Positions 18,265 to 27,710 of a DNA stretch of 41,129 bases are shown here, in pieces. The stretch covers positions 1-41,129 of the forward strand of contig NZ_QGHD01000022.1 of NCBI RefSeq assembly GCF_003148885.1, in the 5' to 3' direction. The DNA comes from Hallerella porci. Lineage in GTDB: Bacteria; Fibrobacterota; Fibrobacteria; Fibrobacterales; Fibrobacteraceae. The position numbers and the translations under genes are program-made. Position 1 is the stretch's first letter. Each line of letters starts with the position of its first letter. The notes below the pieces were generated by a model. That model ran no database searches and was not told the DNA's origin. It saw only the letters and a program-made list of their open reading frames with translations.

Positions 18265-19101
18265 ATGCAATTTTTTCCCGCTGCGTATCAGGCGATTCAA
18301 AATAACAACAACGAACTTTCGGAAACAACTCTTCGCACTTACTTTTGGAATTTGAAAAAGCTGGAAAATTTCCAGCCCAATTTATGCTGCGAAGAAATTG
18401 ACGTCGCATTTATTCACGCGTATAAATCGCATTTGCAAGAATGCGGAAACAAGCCCGCAACCGTGAACAAAGCGCTCTCGGTTCTGCGCATTTTCTTAAA
18501 TCAATTTATCGACGACGGCGTCAAAATGAAAAATCCATTTGAAAAATTTCGCATCGGACGCGTCTATTCTCATCGCGGATTTTTAACGATTCCCGAGCTC
18601 AAAAAACTCTATTGGAATTATTTCAATCAAAAAGAAATTTTAACGGCAAACGAAAAAGAAGCGATGCGCATTTTTCTTTTTAGCTGTTTTACCGGGCTGC
18701 GTTACAGCGATTTGAAATCTCTTGATGCGACAGAAATTGCCGATTGGAAAATTCGAAAGCAAACGCAGAAAACGGGCGAAGCCGTTTACATTCCCATTCC
18801 CGTACAAGCGCGACTTTTACTCGATACACTTCCTTTGTGCGGAAATATTTTTCACGTCACCGAAAATTCTCAGTTCAATCGACAACTGCGTCGCGCGGCG
18901 AAAAAACTCGATTGCAATCGTTATTTGCATTGTCATTTAGCGCGACACACTTTCGCGACCACTTGCATTACCATCGGCATTTCTCTTCCTGCGACTGGAA
19001 AACTTCTCGGGCATCGGAATCTTTCGACGACGTTAATTTATGCGAAATATGTGGACGCATTTCTCGATAAAGAAATGAAAAAATTTAATCGGCTGCGATG
19101 A
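18265..19101 (+). CDS. Tyrosine recombinase (integrase family)
   Basis: The protein has 278 residues. A SAM-like core-binding domain (about 1-100) is followed by the catalytic domain. Active-site residues are R146 (TGLRYSDL), K169, H224 and R227 (HLARHTFAT), H250 (LGHRNLSTT) and Y259 (IYAKY), so it appears intact. It is the length of XerC/D, but the sequence style recalls solitary Bacteroidetes-type integrases. No phage, transposon, integron cassette or tRNA target lies beside it. Its ribosome site lies in a perfect hairpin. The role may be site inversion, dimer resolution or a relic of a mobile element. Confidence 0.88.
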   Translation: MQFFPAAYQAIQNNNNELSETTLRTYFWNLKKLENFQPNLCCEEIDVAFIHAYKSHLQECGNKPATVNKALSVLRIFLNQFIDDGVKMKNPFEKFRIGRVYSHRGFLTIPELKKLYWNYFNQKEILTANEKEAMRIFLFSCFTGLRYSDLKSLDATEIADWKIRKQTQKTGEAVYIPIPVQARLLLDTLPLCGNIFHVTENSQFNRQLRRAAKKLDCNRYLHCHLARHTFATTCITIGISLPATGKLLGHRNLSTTLIYAKYVDAFLDKEMKKFNRLR

Positions 19102-19858: not shown

Positions 19859-21274
19859 CTAGAAAATCGCCGGCACAATGACGACAGTTTTTGAACCCGC
19901 TTTAACTTTGGCGGTAAATTCATAATGTCCGACTGCGCTGCCATTTCGATTCGTCGGGAGAACCGAAACTTTATGCATTCCCGGAGTCGCAGGAATTCGC
20001 GTTACGCGCACATATTGCGGAAGGAAAAGTCCCACACGCAAATCCGCTTGTTCTAACTGTGCCGCGGCAACATCGGTTCCGACACTCGTAAGCAAATTCA
20101 AAAACACATTATTCGTTTCCATTTGCTTCTTCGCTTGTTGCGCAGCAATCGTCCGCGTTAAAACGCGAACCGCTGTGCGCCCGAGAGTTGCCGTCCGTTC
20201 TTCACTTAAATTTTTCACCAAATGCTTTGTGTTGTCGAGGTAAATTTCTGGACGGACCGCAGGATTTTTTCCATCCATGCGGACTTCAAAATTTTCCGTC
20301 CGATATGGCACATCTTTGCGTTCTGGAATTGCAATCGTTACCGAAATCGTGGTGCCTCCGTGCGAGCCGACAGCTGTTGCGGGGAACGGAATCGTCAAAC
20401 TTTGCACATTTCCGGTCTGCGGATTTTTTCCCGTAAGATTCAAAATACCGCCGCGCACATAAGTTCCCGAAAGCATCCATTCTCCAAGAATTGCGCTGTG
20501 TCCTGCATAACCGATGACGATAATTTCGCCATTCGCATTATCCGCATATACGGGCAACATCGCAGGTGCATTCGGATGCGGGAATTTTAACGCTTTCACA
20601 TCATCGCTTCGTCCCGCTTTTTGTAAACGGCTTTCGATGAACGCTTGCGCTTCGGCAGGGAGAACAGTCGGTTCTTCTTCGTAAGCTTTTGCTGCTTTGT
20701 AATAAGCGATTGCCGCATCATCGTTTTCGCCTTCCATTTCATAAACGAGCCCGATTAAATAACGCAAATAGCCCGCGTCATTTGTCTTCTGATTATCTTT
20801 CTGATAAAGCGCTTGGAGCGCAATATCGGCTGCGCGACATTCCACAAGCGCTCCGTCCACATCGTTCATCGCCAAATAATTGACGATGTTCATTTCATAA
20901 AGCGCGAGCACTTCGAACGGACGCGCACGATATGGACGCACGTTATCATTCGTCATCAGCGACACCGCTTCATTCGTCACCGACTTCGTATATAAATCTT
21001 CGTAAACTTGTTTGGCTTTTTCAAATTCGTCAGCGCTCTTTTTATACTCGCCATTATAATGGTAAAGAGTTGCCAAATCAAAGTGATACAAGAACACCGA
21101 ATTTGAGCCGTAGAGTTTGTCCTGTTTGTCTTGGACTTTTTTAATGACCGCAGAAAAGCCTTCTTTTTCCAAAGGCTCCGAAAGTTCCTCGTAACGCGTC
21201 ATCGATTTATTGGCGCAGCTGCAAAGGAAAACCACACAAAAGAGAAGCGTAAAAAGAGAAAAAGATTTCTGCAT
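19859..21274 (-). CDS. TPR-containing lipoprotein (COG3014-like)
   Basis: The protein has 471 residues. A lipoprotein signal ends at LCSC (C20). Residues about 40-220 have TPR-like helix pairs (FDLATLYHYNGEYKKSADEFEKAKQVYED, YLIGLVYEMEGENDDAAIAYYKAAKAYEE). The C-terminal half is beta-rich (GEIIVIGYAGHSAI and following). It matches an uncharacterised family (COG3014) that tends to neighbour LpoB-type genes, as here. A role as an envelope partner of cell-wall synthesis is inferred from context. It probably sits on the inner face of the outer membrane. A terminator lies between it and lpoB. Confidence 0.75.
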   Translation of the reverse strand: MQKSFSLFTLLFCVVFLCSCANKSMTRYEELSEPLEKEGFSAVIKKVQDKQDKLYGSNSVFLYHFDLATLYHYNGEYKKSADEFEKAKQVYEDLYTKSVTNEAVSLMTNDNVRPYRARPFEVLALYEMNIVNYLAMNDVDGALVECRAADIALQALYQKDNQKTNDAGYLRYLIGLVYEMEGENDDAAIAYYKAAKAYEEEPTVLPAEAQAFIESRLQKAGRSDDVKALKFPHPNAPAMLPVYADNANGEIIVIGYAGHSAILGEWMLSGTYVRGGILNLTGKNPQTGNVQSLTIPFPATAVGSHGGTTISVTIAIPERKDVPYRTENFEVRMDGKNPAVRPEIYLDNTKHLVKNLSEERTATLGRTAVRVLTRTIAAQQAKKQMETNNVFLNLLTSVGTDVAAAQLEQADLRVGLFLPQYVRVTRIPATPGMHKVSVLPTNRNGSAVGHYEFTAKVKAGSKTVVIVPAIF

Positions 21275-21323
21275 TATGGGGAAAATGCCGCAACATCGCG
21301 GCGGAAAAAGGAAAAGTTTTTAC

Positions 21324-21355
21324 AAAAAAACGAAAGCGCCACAAAGACGCTTTCG
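21324..21355 (-). terminator. Rho-independent terminator after lpoB
   Basis: CGAAAGCG (21331-21338) pairs with CGCTTTCG (21348-21355), loop nine bases. On the minus strand seven T residues follow (forward A run 21324-21330). Confidence 0.8.
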
Positions 21356-21365
21356 CCATTTCAAA

Positions 21366-21974
21366 TTACATCTTCACCGAAGCTTTGTTCATGTACTTCT
21401 TAATCTTCTTGTCGCCAATCCAAACGGTTTTGTGTGTTTGAATGTCAACGAGTTGAAGGTCGATTTGATAGAAGACAACTTGTTCGCCGCCTTCTTGGTC
21501 CACGATAGAATTCAAGCTGCCGGTGAGCATCAAATCCGCACCGATTTCTTGACCCGCTTCCTTGCGAGTTTCTTCGGTAGCGTTACCCGATTGGCTAGCG
21601 AGTTCTGCGCGGAGTTCGCCGCGTTCTTCAGCGTTTGCCACGAAGTCCACTTTACCGCTATTGATGAGAGCGCGTTCCATATCCTTGATGAAAGTTTCCA
21701 CGTTAATGTGTTCGTGGCTCTTGTTGCGGACAGATCCAATCACAACCGTCGGAAGTTCACCGTTTTTACCCTGCAAAAGTTTATTGTACCAAGGACGAGC
21801 GATGCAATCCTGAATCATTTCTTCTGCAACCAAACGGGAGTCCGTATCATTCCACTTACCCGAAAGATCCACCACAGAATCCGATTCGATGCGGGTGACT
21901 TTTTTACCGCCCGAGCATGCAACCAAAGCAAATGCAGCAAAGCAGAGGATCGAAAGACGAAGCACTTTAGACAT
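21366..21974 (-). CDS. lpoB: Penicillin-binding protein activator LpoB-like lipoprotein
   Basis: The protein has 202 residues with lipobox LVAC (C20). The segment LSGKWNDTDSRLVAEEMIQDCI through VVIGSVRNKSHEHINVETFIKDMERALINSGKVDFV matches the LpoB family. These are outer-membrane lipoproteins that reach through the peptidoglycan to stimulate class A penicillin-binding proteins. The C-terminal part (GADLMLTGSLNSIVDQEGGEQVVFYQIDLQLVDIQTHKTVWIGDKKIKK) completes the fold. GAAGG precedes the ATG. The gene lies just upstream of a TPR lipoprotein, as in other phyla. Confidence 0.85.
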   Translation of the reverse strand: MSKVLRLSILCFAAFALVACSGGKKVTRIESDSVVDLSGKWNDTDSRLVAEEMIQDCIARPWYNKLLQGKNGELPTVVIGSVRNKSHEHINVETFIKDMERALINSGKVDFVANAEERGELRAELASQSGNATEETRKEAGQEIGADLMLTGSLNSIVDQEGGEQVVFYQIDLQLVDIQTHKTVWIGDKKIKKYMNKASVKM

Positions 21975-22144
21975 TTTGTACCTTCTTTTGAATTTTTGAA
22001 TGTTTGTTTTTAATATAGAAAACCTTTCCCCGCTCGTATTCCAATTTTAACATCTTATCGGATAAAGCGTAAAACCCTAGTTTCGCACTTTCGTTTTTAT
22101 TAGATTTGATAGACGCAGAATGTTCTGTAAGCTGGAGAAGCAGA

Positions 22145-22693
22145 ATGAAAAAGCTTTTAATTCTTATCGCAGCACTTGCCGTTTGGACTTTTGCAGGGGA
22201 AGGTCGCCCTGTTTACAATCCGTATGCCAGTTACGGTTTAGAAATCGGCGTCAATAGACCGATGAACGATCGTTGGAAAGATAACCGCAAAGCATTCGGC
22301 GACGTCGGATTTATCGCAAACTATCAACTTCTTCCTTATACAAGCGTAACGGGCGATGCGGGCTATTCATTCCCCGGCAACGGATTTGATGTTAAATTCG
22401 GTATCCAGCAAATGCTTCTTCCCGCGGGCATTACTCCGTTTATCGGCGGTATGGCAGGTATTCAAGCCATCCCCGAAGATGATGATGCCGATACATTCGG
22501 CGACCGTTTTGGTCCGACCGTCGAAGCAAACGCGGGTATTTTCTTCTTCACCGAATCTTGGATTTCGATGCGCTTAAAAGGCTCGTATCAATGGACATTT
22601 GCCGACGAAATCAATCATAGTTTCGGCGTATCGCTCGGCATTCTCTTCGCCAATTCACGTCCGGGTCTCAAAGCGATTGATGTAAGCCGATGA
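22145..22693 (+). CDS. Outer-membrane beta-barrel protein
   Basis: The protein has 182 residues. A signal peptide (MKKLLILIAALAVWTFAG) is followed by alternating hydrophobic/polar strands typical of a small eight-stranded barrel (YGLEIGVNRP, VGFIANYQLLP, TSVTGDAGYSF, GITPFIGGMAGIQAI, WISMRLKGSYQWTF, HSFGVSLGILFA). The start at 22145 follows GGAG; an upstream in-frame ATG (22106) would destroy the signal peptide. The stop overlaps the first Rrf2 gene in ATGA, so the barrel and two regulators form one coupled unit. The function is unknown. Confidence 0.75.
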   Translation: MKKLLILIAALAVWTFAGEGRPVYNPYASYGLEIGVNRPMNDRWKDNRKAFGDVGFIANYQLLPYTSVTGDAGYSFPGNGFDVKFGIQQMLLPAGITPFIGGMAGIQAIPEDDDADTFGDRFGPTVEANAGIFFFTESWISMRLKGSYQWTFADEINHSFGVSLGILFANSRPGLKAIDVSR

Positions 22694-23118
22694 AAATTTC
22701 TACTCGCGGACAATATTCGTTAGAAGCACTTTTGTGCATCGCTACCGAAGACCCCGAAAAGCCGTGTAGCATTCACACCATCTCGGAAAAAACGCACATT
22801 TCCGATGGCTATTTAGAGCAACTTTTCATTCCGCTCAAAAAAGCAAAACTCATCGTCGGTAGCCGCGGCATTCAAGGCGGTTACCGCTTGGCCAAAAGCC
22901 CGAAAGAAATTTCGGCTTACGAAGTTTTGACGCTAATGGAAAAATCGCTCAAATCCATTCCTTGCTTAAATGGCGATAAATGCGAACGCGAAAAAATCTG
23001 CGATAGTAAATTCGTTTGGGCATCGATTGATCATTCAATTGACAGCCTCATTTCACAAATTACCTTGGACGATTTAATTCAAGTTTACCGCGGCGTACAA
23101 GGAGAATTTTACGGATGA
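22690..23118 (+). CDS. Rrf2-family regulator with IscR-type cysteines
   Basis: The protein has 142 residues. A winged helix lies at about 1-70 (ISTRGQYSLEALLCIA, SDGYLEQLFIPLKKAKLIVGSRGIQGGYRLAK). C92, C98 and C104 occupy the same spacing and positions as the cluster-binding cysteines of IscR, so it probably binds an Fe-S cluster and senses iron-sulfur status, oxygen or redox. No isc or suf genes are beside it, so it may act elsewhere or on its own operon. ATGA overlaps join it to the barrel gene before and the second Rrf2 gene after. Confidence 0.87.
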   Translation: MKISTRGQYSLEALLCIATEDPEKPCSIHTISEKTHISDGYLEQLFIPLKKAKLIVGSRGIQGGYRLAKSPKEISAYEVLTLMEKSLKSIPCLNGDKCEREKICDSKFVWASIDHSIDSLISQITLDDLIQVYRGVQGEFYG

Positions 23119-23546
23119 AAATTTCTACCAAAGGCCGCTACGGCGTCCGTTTCCTGCTCGACATCGCAGAACAAGGCGAAAATAAACCGTCCACATTAGC
23201 CGCCATTTCCGAACGTCAAGGAATTTCTCTCGCCTACTTAGGACAAATTGCGATTATCTTAAAGCAATCGGGATATATTCGTTCTATCAAAGGTTCAAAC
23301 GGCGGATTTGTTTTAGCAAAACCTTCTCAAGAAATTCAATTGGATGAATTATTGAATACATTAGAAGGCTCAATGAAAGTCGTCGAATCGCCGCTTCCCT
23401 CCGAAGAAGAAACTCCTTACCGCACCGCCATCCGCATCGGTCTTTATCAAAAAATGGACGAAGCCGTTGAAATCGTCCTCAAAAAATTGACCCTCGACAA
23501 ACTCATCTCCGGCAAAAATAAGCCGGAATATATGTATTACATTTAA
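23115..23546 (+). CDS. Rrf2-family regulator without cluster cysteines
   Basis: The protein has 143 residues. Its winged helix (MKISTKGRYGVRFLLDIAEQ, SLAYLGQIAIILKQSGYIRSIKGSNGGFVLAK) is paralogous to the preceding regulator, but the protein contains no cysteine at all, so it cannot bind an Fe-S cluster through the usual residues. It may sense something else or form heterodimers with its neighbour. The start overlaps the previous stop (ATGA), arguing for fixed co-expression. Confidence 0.85.
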   Translation: MKISTKGRYGVRFLLDIAEQGENKPSTLAAISERQGISLAYLGQIAIILKQSGYIRSIKGSNGGFVLAKPSQEIQLDELLNTLEGSMKVVESPLPSEEETPYRTAIRIGLYQKMDEAVEIVLKKLTLDKLISGKNKPEYMYYI

Positions 23547-23760: not shown

Positions 23761-24159
23761 CTAAGCGTCGGCGTACTTGCTGGGGCCGTCTTTAGCAGTA
23801 GAGCTCCAGTAATTCCCATCAAAGCCAATGTGCCACAAGTCAGAATCGTAACGATACCCTGCTGTTGGCATAAAAATAGAGTTTCCGTTCGTTCCTATTA
23901 CTTGGTAGCCTTTTTTTGTTTCATTCCAAGTCCATGTGCAGGAATTTTTCAATTCTTCCATTTCTTCTTCTGTCGGCATGCGCCACTTGCCACCCCAATT
24001 TGCGGTGGCCGCATCATATTCCGCATTTCCCGAAATATCCGTAAGCGATTTATTGTCGCAAAGTTTATAAGTTGCAGTGACATAACTTTCTTTCGGCTCA
24101 ATTTCGCCCCAAGCAAAGTAATCACCGTAAGCAGTTTCGCTTTCTGCACCGACATTCAT
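23761..24159 (-). pseudogene. Third FISUMP domain fragment
   Basis: This open stretch of 132 codons begins after the TAA at 24169 and ends at the TAG at 23761. It encodes most of a FISUMP domain (NVGAESETAYGDYFAWGEIEPKESY, GGKWRMPTEEEMEEL, SIFMPTAGYRYD, YWSSTAKD). The last 26 residues of the domain continue in the same frame past the stop. It has no ribosome site or signal of its own and is probably not translated separately. Confidence 0.6.
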
Positions 24160-24168
24160 ATTCGCCCA

Positions 24169-24735
24169 TTAGACACTTAAACCTAAATCAACGGCTTCTA
24201 TTTTTGCAGGCACATCACCGTAAACCGGGCGGATGGCAAGGCCTGCATATAAGAAGTAATAATCCAAGCCATGAGCACTTGAGGAAAGATACAGAACCGA
24301 TGCCGTTCCACCTTGATTGTCATAAAAATTTGCGCTCCAATAATAGCCGATATTTTCTTTTTGCGTATATTCATTCACAATGAAGTCTGTTTTCGGCAAA
24401 TAAATAAACACCTTCGATGGCCCGGTCACTTTATAGACTTCTTTACCCGATACGGTTTCAAGCGTCCAAGTACAGGATTCAATCAAGGCTTCAATTTCTT
24501 CTTTTGTCGGCATACGCCACTTGTCGCCTAACTTTGCTGTAGCCGCATCGTATTTTGCATTGCCGACAATCGACGTAATTGATGCATCATTGCAAATTTT
24601 GCAAGTGCTTTTGCTGTAAGATTCCTTCGGTTCAATTTCGCCCCACGCATAATAATTGCCAACGTCTGTAGGCGTTTCTGCGCCCAAATTGCGGTCGCCC
24701 CATTTGACGTTCAAGCCCAAATCCACCGCCTTCAT
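24169..24735 (-). pseudogene. Second FISUMP domain fragment
   Basis: Encodes a complete FISUMP domain (AVDLGLNVKWGDRNLGAETPTDVGNYYAWGEIEPKESY, DKWRMPTKEEIEAL, IGYYWSANFYDNQGG, GLAIRPVYGD) and the first residues of the next. The open frame continues upstream through a Ser/Lys linker to about 24900, where it joins the first domain after the one-base frameshift. No start signal of its own is apparent. Confidence 0.6.
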
Positions 24736-24884
24736 TTTTTCTTCGACACTGCTGCTTGACTTCGCCGAGGAACTGGAGGACTTTACAGAGGAACTAGAAG
24801 ATTTCGCAACGCTACTGCTTGACTTTACGGAGCTCGAAGACTTTACAGAACTCGAAGATTTCGGCTTGTAATTTTTATTGACCT

Positions 24885-25880
24885 TTACCGGGCGAACAGA
24901 GACCCTGCATACCCAACACCCATATCTTCCAAAGCAGGTTTTGAATCCTTCATCAAAACCATATCAATCCGCGATCCACCACGAAACATAGCTGCAATAC
25001 CTATGTAAATAGCCTGAAATTCATTAAAAGCTCCTGCAGCAGGCAAGAATATCGATTTTTCATTGCAAGTCACACGATAACCATTCACCGATTCCTTTTT
25101 CGTCCATTCCAATTTACACTTGGTGACAAGTTCCTTCATTTCTTTTACGGTCGGCATGCGCCACTTGCCGCCCCATTTGGCAGCAGCCGCATCGTACTTT
25201 TTATTACCCGAAATATTGCTTGGGAGCGCCGAAACATTGTAAATCAACGTATTTTCGCTGTATTCATCTTTCGTCTCGGTTTCGCCGTAGGCAAAGTAAT
25301 CGCCAAAGTCGGCTGCGTTTTCGGCGCCAATGTTGACTTCGGCCCAGTCAACGCTCAAGCCCAAGTCAACCGCCTTATATTTTTCTTCAACGCTAGAACT
25401 TGAATTCTTAGCAGAACTCGAAGATTTTGCATCCGAAGACGTTCCATCCGTTTTTTCGCTTGAACTAGACTTTTTCGTAGAGCTCGAAGATTTTGCGCTG
25501 CTCGAAGAAATTTCCTTGACATCAAGCCATTCCTTTCCGTCGCACACGTAAACGGTCGAATCGCTGTAAGTTAGCGCGTATTCGCCCTTACGCTTTTCGT
25601 CGCAGGTTTTGAGCGATTCCTTGTCTTCGACGACGTGTAAAGCCAATTTCCAGTCTTCGCTTTGGCATACATAATACGCTTCTTCGCTATTCACATAGAG
25701 CGTATCGCCATCGTTATCCTTGGTGCATTCGTCCAAGTCCTTTAAATTTTTGACTTCGTCGTAAATCGATTTGTAACTTGCCGAAGACGAACTCGAATCG
25801 TCGCCGCAAGCGGTGAATGTAAAGGCTAAGCCCAGAGCGGCGAAGCCGAGGAATGGGAGGTTGTAAAAGTTTTTCATCAT
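24885..25880 (-). CDS. Truncated FISUMP lipoprotein (5' part of broken gene)
   Basis: The open 331-codon front part could still be made as a lipoprotein. The signal ends at TFTAC. The following region holds two short repeats with paired cysteines (YYVCQSEDWKL and VYVCDGKEWLD) and Ser/Lys linkers. One FISUMP domain starts at KAVDLGLSVDWAEVNIGAEN. Its last residues (SLFAR) are out of frame; the original end VSVRPV is in the next frame. FISUMP domains are abundant Fibrobacter surface modules of unknown function. It begins 15 bases after the upstream broken gene, so both were one transcript. Confidence 0.6.
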   Translation of the reverse strand: MMKNFYNLPFLGFAALGLAFTFTACGDDSSSSSASYKSIYDEVKNLKDLDECTKDNDGDTLYVNSEEAYYVCQSEDWKLALHVVEDKESLKTCDEKRKGEYALTYSDSTVYVCDGKEWLDVKEISSSSAKSSSSTKKSSSSEKTDGTSSDAKSSSSAKNSSSSVEEKYKAVDLGLSVDWAEVNIGAENAADFGDYFAYGETETKDEYSENTLIYNVSALPSNISGNKKYDAAAAKWGGKWRMPTVKEMKELVTKCKLEWTKKESVNGYRVTCNEKSIFLPAAGAFNEFQAIYIGIAAMFRGGSRIDMVLMKDSKPALEDMGVGYAGSLFAR

Positions 25881-25895
25881 AGCTCTTCGTTTCCT

Positions 25896-26477
25896 TTAAA
25901 ATTCAAGGGTTCTAGCGATTCTAAATCCAATGGCACTTGCAGCGATTGCTGTTCCTAATGAATTTCTTCCATTTCTAGAAGTTAAAACGAGAGCATCATC
26001 AGCGCTCCTGTAAGAACCGCCACGAATGACATGCAATCCATCGTTCGAAGATTTTGGATAGGCTTCTGGATAGCTGCTTGCATATTCTTCATAATCGTTA
26101 TTCCCATATCCATTCCAAGTCCATTCAGTAACATTTCCGTTCATGTCGTAAATTCCAAGTGAATTTGACCTTAGCGAACCCACTTCGTGCGTTCTATCGG
26201 AATTTTCGCTATACCATGCAATTGCATCTAAGCTTTGAGCGCCGGCATAGCTGTAGTTCCATTCCTTTGCAAAGACATTTCCACCGCGGGCAGCGTATTC
26301 CCATTCGACTTCGGTGGGTAACCTGTAGCCCAATGCTTCAAATTTTGCGTAAACCGTCTTATTGCTTGCGGCATCATCGCTTGTGTAAGCCTGCGTCAAA
26401 GATTCGTCAGAAAAATACACAATGCTATCTGCACCCAAAGTTTTTTTTCGTAAGTTCGTTGCAGAACACAATCGCAT
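25896..26477 (-). pseudogene. SUMF1-like domain fragment (3' part)
   Basis: Contains the conserved core of a formylglycine-generating-enzyme-like fold (GYRLPTEVEWEYAARGG, LGIYDMNGNVTEWTW, VIRGGSYRS, AIGFRIARTLEF). The true frame entry is at the A run 26441-26448; the apparent start at 26477 is an out-of-frame artefact. Catalytic use is unlikely, since many such domains are structural. Confidence 0.6.
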
Positions 26478-27282
26478 TAAACCATTTTACCGATTCGACA
26501 GGGCGTAAATTTTGAGATTCACCATCGGCCACCTTTTTTGCGGCTTCTTCACCGACAAAGTAACTTGGATTTGTTCCCATCACGGCGGTGTAAAATTCCT
26601 GAGTCACTTCGTACTTACCGATTGCGTAAGGTTTCAACTTTGTATTGTGATATTTAAAAATGTCACTGGCTTCACTATTCGGTTTCACAAAGGCAGTCGT
26701 TTCAACAACTTTAACAAGCCCCGTATTTTGGTACATAACTCCATCGACAATCAACTTGCCGTAATTTTTAGGAGTCATCTTGTAATTTTCATTTGTCTGT
26801 ACCGGGCGAATCAAGGCGCCATATTTCCAATCATAGAAGCTCAAGTCAGCCCCATAGGATTCAGCAAAATCCAAAATTTTGCCCACCTGTGCTGAATTTT
26901 GCGCTGTTTGAGAAACCCAATAAGTGCCACCATCCTTACTCAAAGTGTCCTTTCCTTCCACATAGCCGCCCGCAGGCATAAAAATGGTTTTGGCGTTACA
27001 TGTCACCGCATAGCCGCCGACGCTTTCGCCTTTGGAATTTTTCTGGCTGCTGAATTTCCAAGTACACTTTTTAAGAAGTTCTTCGACTTCTTCGGGCGTT
27101 GGCATGCGCCAGTTTTTGCCCCAGTTTTTTGCAGCGGCATCGTAAGAAGCATTCCCTGCAATGTCAGAGGTTCCGACTTTATAATAGTCCGTAATTTGGG
27201 CATCGGAATCTTTGAATTTTTGAGATTCTTCGTCGTAGGATTCTTTAGGTTCGACTTCGCCAAATGCGTAATAGAAGCCCAC
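26425..27282 (-). pseudogene. FISUMP plus SUMF1 N-terminal fragment (middle part)
   Basis: Encodes a FISUMP domain lacking its first 20-25 residues (GFYYAFGEVEPKESY, NWGKNWRMPTPEEVEELLKK, TIFMPAGGYVEGKD, YWVSQTAQNSAQ, GALIRPV) and the first part of a SUMF1-like domain (PYAIGKYEVTQEFYTAVMGTNPSYF, SVKWFNAIVFCNELTKK). It is bounded upstream by the deletion junction at 27289 and downstream by the extra A in the run at 26441-26448. Confidence 0.6.
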
Positions 27283-27710
27283 ATCGGCTTGCTGCTCGAG
27301 CTTTCGGCAACGCTTGAACTTGAAACCTCGGTCGAACTTGACGACTTTGTGTCTTTGTTGGAACTTGAGGATTTCGTTGAACTGGAAGATTTGGAATTCG
27401 AGGATTTTCCGCTCGAACTAGAAACCTTGGTCGAACTCGAAGATTTGGAATCCGAGGATTTTGAATTTGAAGATTTAGCGTTAGAGCTAGAACTTACCTT
27501 CGTCGAACTCGATGACTTCGAAGACTTTGTGGAGCTCGAAGATTTTGATTTTGACTCCGAAGACGTGACGCTGCTCGAGCTCGAATCTTCTTCTATTGCG
27601 GGTTCATCGGGACCTGCCCCCGAACTGGAATCGTCGCAGGCAGTGAATGTAAAAGCTACGCCGAAAGCGACGAGACTTGTCAAAGTGGATTTAAGGATAA
27701 ATGATTTCAT
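27003..27710 (-). CDS. Truncated lipoprotein front with Ser-rich linker
   Basis: Starts with GGAG before the ATG and a lipoprotein signal ending at FTFTAC. It runs through about 110 residues of Ser/Lys/Asn/Thr linker to S140. After that the frame is wrong for the FISUMP domain, and the remaining 95 residues have no domain character. If expressed, the product would be a lipid-anchored Ser-rich stalk without its head domains. Confidence 0.5.
   Translation of the reverse strand: MKSFILKSTLTSLVAFGVAFTFTACDDSSSGAGPDEPAIEEDSSSSSVTSSESKSKSSSSTKSSKSSSSTKVSSSSNAKSSNSKSSDSKSSSSTKVSSSSGKSSNSKSSSSTKSSSSNKDTKSSSSTEVSSSSVAESSSSKPMWASITHLAKSNLKNPTTKNLKNSKIPMPKLRTIIKSEPLTLQGMLLTMPLQKTGAKTGACQRPKKSKNFLKSVLGNSAARKIPKAKASAAMR

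Follow-up and report, generated by a model that had tools for sequence, protein, structure and literature searches.

Why should a small outer-membrane barrel gene be followed, in what looks like one operon, by two related Rrf2 regulators, only one of which carries the cysteines of an iron-sulphur (Fe-S) sensor? This arrangement was pointed out in an earlier note on the 41,129-nucleotide stretch of Hallerella porci DNA analyzed here (the window). The window corresponds to contig C22, and the genome measures 2.85 Mb. G and L numbers denote compared genomes and loci, G000 being the window's own genome. The coordinates and reading frames were as the note had described them (Table 1): in the ORF reading both junctions, barrel/Rrf2-A and Rrf2-A/Rrf2-B, are 4-base ATGA overlaps, and the three genes would presumably be read as one transcript. 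In the literature consulted, partly as excerpts, the known Rrf2 sensors either hold a cluster (IscR, NsrR, RsrR) or respond to cysteine together with CysK (CymR). Among open-licence PMC papers, no title or abstract dealt with such an Rrf2 pair, and no paper described an Rrf2 regulator of sulphur genes in Fibrobacter-like or Treponema-like gut bacteria. A co-inherited pair with one member of each type would offer a handle on how cysteine supply is coupled to iron-sulphur demand.

Table 1. Features of the barrel-Rrf2-Rrf2 locus (positions in the window)
Feature	Position	Strand	Evidence or remark
Intergenic region, lpoB (minus strand) to barrel	21975..22144	.	Presumed promoter; no operator found
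Barrel gene	22145..22693	+	First gene of operon; no Pfam match; AlphaFold2 model and Foldseek
Rrf2-A, 142 aa	22690..23118	+	PF02082, E 4.4e-31
Glu12 codon of Rrf2-A	22723..22725	+	Position 12 survey
Cys92, Cys98 and Cys104 of Rrf2-A (CX5CX5C)	22963..23001	+	Translation
Rrf2-B, CymR-like, 143 aa	23115..23546	+	PF02082, E 2.1e-28
Arg12 codon of Rrf2-B	23148..23150	+	Relay role known for NsrR only (excerpt of PMC5411485)
YMYYI C-terminal tail of Rrf2-B, proposed CysK-docking peptide	23529..23543	+	

Rrf2-A and Rrf2-B (hereafter A and B) are the two sole PF02082 matches in the whole genome and, as previously noted, are paralogues, the first with cysteines at 92, 98 and 104 and the second with no cysteine at all. 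All three genes are evidently under purifying selection: dN/dS was 0.05-0.25 for barrel, A and B in 30 of 35 gene comparisons (rough values, as many dS exceeded 1), the other five being dS-saturated. Such selection argues against B being an unused second regulator. The statement that isc and suf genes are not adjacent was also borne out. The two SufBD-family matches of the genome lie on contigs C1 and C7, which disposes of control of adjacent suf genes by the pair, and reading of the window ORFs revealed no adjacent isc gene. Promoter-like and terminator-like sites did not stand out from shuffled sequences.

The five cysteines of A are at positions 16, 26, 92, 98 and 104. The last three showed no variation across the eight rows of the A alignment, and the triad was present in 30 of 31 readable A proteins of pairs, the exception being the A of G453. 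A shares CX5CX5C at these positions with IscR, including Thermincola potens IscR (PDB 4cic), and shares a three-Cys cluster site and the Rrf2-fold helix-1 contact region with NsrR of Streptomyces coelicolor. It scored 118 bits against TIGR00738 and 96.6 bits against the IscR model TIGR02010, below the cut-off of 207.55, and further differs from IscR in having Glu12, in lacking an adjacent suf gene and in lying nearly always next to a B-type gene. Position 107 is Lys, where IscR has its fourth cluster ligand, His107. The Asp8 of NsrR, which is known as a homodimer, is found in neither protein, residue 8 being Gln in A and Arg in B. We read A as an Fe-S-type Rrf2 partner, which would bind a cluster through its Cys triad.

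The best equivalog model for B is that of CymR (NF047409), to which it aligns over the full length with 109.2 bits; the cut-off of 195 was reached neither by B nor by the other B-type proteins tested. When the B model was searched with Foldseek, the top matches were chains of 2y75 (Bacillus subtilis CymR; E 2.5e-11). In a tree of 146 rows and few columns, whose bootstrap had not settled, B proteins and five single cluster-less Rrf2 proteins, including those of Clostridium thermopalmarium and Alkalibaculum, formed one group (100/99). By sequence and modelled fold, B is best classified as a CymR-like regulator. Like CymR of B. subtilis and Staphylococcus aureus (PDB 2y75, 3t8r), which acts with CysK, B has no cluster Cys and ends in Ile, and the pair has a kinship to cysK, metY and metC in other genomes. 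Unlike CymR, it has a co-inherited Fe-S-type partner gene, lies here behind a barrel gene rather than sulphur genes, and has a CysK interaction that is predicted. Clostridium perfringens cpe1786 is likewise a CymR-like Rrf2 whose gene is induced under cysteine limitation, but it is reported to adjoin iscS, iscU and trmU, and the excerpt of PMC2940859 that describes it mentions no second Rrf2.

It has been reported that CymR is stabilized on DNA by CysK (passages of PMC4961446), that it counts among the CysK partners with a C-terminal Ile motif (passages of PMC12895370), and that the signal for CymR/CysK is O-acetylserine (excerpt of PMC2940859). A C-terminal Ile was present in 29 of 33 distinct B proteins, near-copies having been removed here and in the position 12 counts by the first 120 residues. 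The four B proteins that have lost it are exactly those of G141-G144, the sister species in which a third Rrf2 is present. We propose that the YMYYI tail of B, which is flexible in the model (residues 136-143 at pLDDT <50), is a putative CysK-docking peptide. A C-terminal Ile also occurs in 51 of 83 single Rrf2 proteins, so it is not special to CymR, and T. potens IscR likewise ends in YMYYI. CysE ends in Lys in the five genus genomes with a match above the cut-off, so the canonical use of the CysK cleft is not open to CysE. In CysK, TSGNTG was kept in all four genomes looked at, and QQF is present in G000.

Genomic context pointed to sulphur amino acids. Pairs were found in at least nine of 167 Fibrobacterota genomes, the window's own included (G000, G141-G144, G042, G043, G148 and G149). 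The pair is immediately upstream of cysK in G042, which belongs to another family, and in G148 and G149, with metY next in G042 and G148. In G148 a contig end falls inside A; in G043 the pair follows, with an ATGA overlap, a gene named by eye as prolyl-tRNA synthetase, and its B runs off the contig. Scanning named genomes with the alignment of A yielded at least 580 confirmed loci, of which the best 80, picked by likeness to A and thus non-random, were used; the pair, position 12 and linkage counts omit L175, which duplicates G143, leaving 79 examined loci. Tandem pairs occurred in 23 of the 79 loci (19 Spirochaetota, 4 Bacillota), and 19 of these 23 had a CysK-, MetY- or MetC-type gene on the same strand, several of these genes sharing 4 bases with the pair. 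Among 56 loci of the same scan that lack a pair, 17 had a gene of these types when both strands were counted. No Cys/Met-type gene was found within the stretch at hand in the remaining four pair loci, or near the pair in any of the five genomes of the window genus that carry it. In addition, when 296 genomes from the phylum of a Treponema record were sampled, hits to the A profile at E 1e-12 were obtained in 192, three of them with at least 150 bits among the matches listed, and the best 30 loci fetched from this set contained new pairs in G384 and G453. A 4-base overlap of A with B was seen in every Fibrobacterota and Spirochaetota pair found and in one of four clostridial pairs; the other three have gaps of 40-141 bases. 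Near-copies were kept in the linkage and overlap counts, as well as in the count of palindromes given below. The A-B couple of differing type, one with the Cys triad and one with none, is a conserved unit well beyond the genus.

The explanation that best accommodates these observations, to which we assign a probability of about 0.6, is that A and B form a conserved two-gene module controlling cysteine and methionine synthesis, with a CymR-like repressor (B) and a dedicated Fe-S-type partner (A), placed here behind a barrel gene. B would repress sulphur amino-acid genes while working with CysK; a build-up of O-acetylserine would free CysK and lift repression. A would sense iron, Fe-S or redox state via a cluster on Cys92, Cys98 and Cys104. 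In the window genus the couple would form the tail of the barrel transcript, depend on the barrel promoter and act in trans. For the window genome, CysK binding, repression and the regulon are what we infer from this scheme.

How the two proteins might assemble within such a module is addressed by position 12. Among readable proteins, the A of pairs has Glu in 29 of 31 and Ala in 2, B has Arg in 30 of 32 and Lys in 2, and the two pairs with Ala12 in A are the two with Lys12 in B. Single Cys-triad Rrf2 proteins mostly have Arg12 (67 of 75, with Lys in 3, Glu in 4 and Leu in 1), so Glu12 is not a general mark of cluster-type Rrf2. Of the four Glu12 singles, two sit where a contig ends, and L090, one of these two, is the truncated pair of G043; for the two exceptions, L159 and L217, tblastn at E 1 gave no B remnant beyond the self-match of A, a 26-residue piece at L159 being at chance level and on the opposite strand. 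All Glu12 proteins fall in a single clade (99/87), which indicates one evolutionary event rather than independent origins.

Two assemblies are compatible with the module. A and B could form separate homodimers on overlapping sites, A responding to iron or Fe-S and B to cysteine, with Glu12 serving as a cluster ligand or tuner within A:A. Homodimers are the rule among solved relatives (NsrR), and there is precedent for cluster ligation by a carboxylate from the partner subunit, namely Asp8 of NsrR (passages of PMC5411485). However, the single Cys-triad proteins, presumably homodimers, mostly have Arg12 instead of Glu12, and the A and B genes are nearly always kept together in the loci seen, which makes this arrangement somewhat improbable in our judgment.

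The other assembly, a refinement of the preferred explanation, is an obligate A-B heterodimer with divided labour, in which A would hold the one cluster and B would contribute the tail that docks on CysK and an Arg12 relay acting across the subunits, allowing one dimer to read both Fe-S and cysteine. Such a module would be common to Clostridia, Spirochaetota and Fibrobacterota and could be captured by unrelated operons, here that of the barrel gene. In NsrR, according to the same passages of PMC5411485, Asp8 of one subunit ligates the cluster of the other, and Arg12 connects Asp8 to its own recognition-helix region and stands at the partner subunit's cluster. An A:B dimer would place Arg12 of B at the cluster of A and Glu12 of A at the cluster-less loop of B, which is the basis of the idea. 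The reciprocity of residue 12 and the 4-base overlap of the two genes agree with it. On the other hand, Glu12 arose once, it occurs without a B partner in L159 and L217, in G453 a B accompanies an A that has no Cys triad, and the Rrf2 proteins cited from the literature are described as homodimers. The earlier note's sensor/non-sensor pair stands in so far as one protein with the triad and one without it form a conserved couple. Judged from sequence, an A-B heterodimer is plausible; its obligate form with divided labour is a tentative proposal that we would not favour.

A 25-base palindrome, ATATCCTA-N9-TAGGATAT, was found with at most three mismatches at 11 sites in 11 spirochaete loci, all upstream of A. 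These 11 sites came from 178,766 bases in 25 loci (L148-L168 and four clostridial), compared with 0.2 per set in shuffles of two-base blocks, and the seven looked at for distance precede the leading gene of their run by 9 to 180 bases. Positions ahead of metB/metC-Rrf2-Rrf2 runs in Treponema and relatives are L149 2788, L150 3941, L153 1582, L158 198, L160 1494 and L164 3965, with five more loci. We consider this palindrome a candidate sulphur operator of spirochaetes, and the analysis thereby supplies a testable operator.

A weight matrix was made from nine of the 11 sites, two repeats being dropped, and used for 27 tests against mono-nucleotide shuffles; all p values from it are uncorrected. 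Low values were obtained upstream of cysK (G148, 0.028; G149, 0.004; L165, 0.002), upstream of A (G149, 0.014; L157, 0.002), for metC of L152 (0.002), and for metY (0.002) and cysK (0.004) of L199. The matrix failed for cysK (0.118) and A (0.124) of G042, for G043 (0.709), and for L162, L184, L196, L214 and the A of L199 (0.13-0.89). In the window genome, the cysK value was 0.048, borderline at best as one of 27 uncorrected tests, and the cysK values of G140 (0.232), G141 (0.515) and G143 (0.066) were not significant. Matrix sites of at least 10 bits were not enriched in window-genus loci, with four in 92,185 bases of G000 versus 66 in 415,971 bases of other loci.

The palindrome itself, at no more than three mismatches, gave 39 matches in the six genus genomes versus 26 for a control pattern (matches/control: G000 7/6, G140 3/8, G141 6/2, G142 6/3, G143 8/1 and G144 9/6). 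The exact core TCCTA-N9-TAGGA occurred once in G140 (control 2), once in G144 (control 5) and never in G000 (control 2) or the other genus genomes, and was thus absent at the window-genome cysK. The single core site of G144 (L136 6981-7005) precedes by about 50 bases an ORF resembling an alcohol dehydrogenase, after which comes a cysK-type gene; given five control matches in this genome, only the place of the site is notable. A near-perfect palindrome, ATTACCTACCATTTGCATAGGTAAT, is present in the same genome (L092 7188-7212), in the gap that separates a LysR-like ORF from the third Rrf2, which faces metY/metB/cysK.

These searches also bear on the barrel gene. The earlier note had proposed that the regulators control an envelope protein, and a pair rewired in this way would make barrel-A-B an autoregulated envelope operon. 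The first gene is predicted to encode a small outer-membrane barrel with eight strands, a signal peptide and an OmpA/NspA-like fold: its AlphaFold2 model (pLDDT 81.5) has an N-terminal helix (residues 2-17) and eight strands, and Foldseek grouped it with OmpA/OprF/NspA (matches 9fzc, 4rlc and 1p4t; best E 1.2e-5), while no Pfam family matched at E 1. The barrel was also considered as a PagL lipid A deacylase; it gave no PF09411 match, and two relatives were below the cut-off (E 0.021 and 0.00098).

The three-gene order with both overlaps was kept in five of six same-genus genomes (G000, G141, G142, G143 and G144), and this conservation would favour an envelope operon, as would a CCTA upstream of the barrel, conserved at one place in the five genomes with the pair and absent from G140; the CCTA is too weak to be claimed as an operator. 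However, upstream of position 22145 we detected no operator-like site by palindrome, exact core or matrix, and neither the palindrome nor the matrix (p 0.33-0.84) gave one ahead of the barrel in any of the six genus genomes. In addition, the barrel is kept without the pair in three genomes. In the 99% complete G140 the barrel is present, with no B among the matches listed, and in G147 and G148 a barrel orthologue lies, as in the window, next to an lpoB-like ORF (named by eye) with no pair behind it. Conversely, the pair occurs without the barrel at cysK in G042 and G149, in the latter on a different contig behind another gene. We conclude that barrel and pair are independent units brought together in this genus. 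The evidence gives no support for regulation of the barrel by the pair, and we consider rewiring unlikely. What the earlier note had called unusual applies to the barrel junction, which was seen in no other genus, and not to the regulator pair, which is widespread. The locus also illustrates how a regulator operon can be captured behind a gene to which it is unrelated.

A takeover of the cysteine role by a third Rrf2 in this genus is a doubtful alternative, and one more apt for the sister species than for the window. A third Rrf2, with the Cys triad, is present in each of G141-G144, next to metY/metB/cysK in G143 and G144, and the B of these four has no tail; the window genome has the tail and no third Rrf2. 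The cysteine tie may have been lost in those four species. In the window species the pair would still be tied to cysteine, given that the B tail is kept, no other Rrf2 is present and the borderline cysK site fits.

Several further features of the surroundings were observed. Divergent from the barrel, on the minus strand (19859-21974), are genes for an LpoB-family lipoprotein (PF13036) and a TPR-like lipoprotein, which are also neighbours of the barrel in G147 and G148, and the barrel may be part of an LpoB/TPR-lipoprotein envelope cluster. Beyond the operon, the minus strand of 23761-27710 encodes a series of mutually similar proteins in which 'AVDLGLSV...WAWGE' segments recur alongside Ser-rich linkers. 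Several of the ORFs are apparently broken, and we take the proteins to resemble the Fibrobacter FISUMP family. A tyrosine-recombinase-like ORF (18265-19101, plus strand) adjoins a HAD-like gene, both named by eye, and has a counterpart at the same place in G140 (L091 3335-4171).
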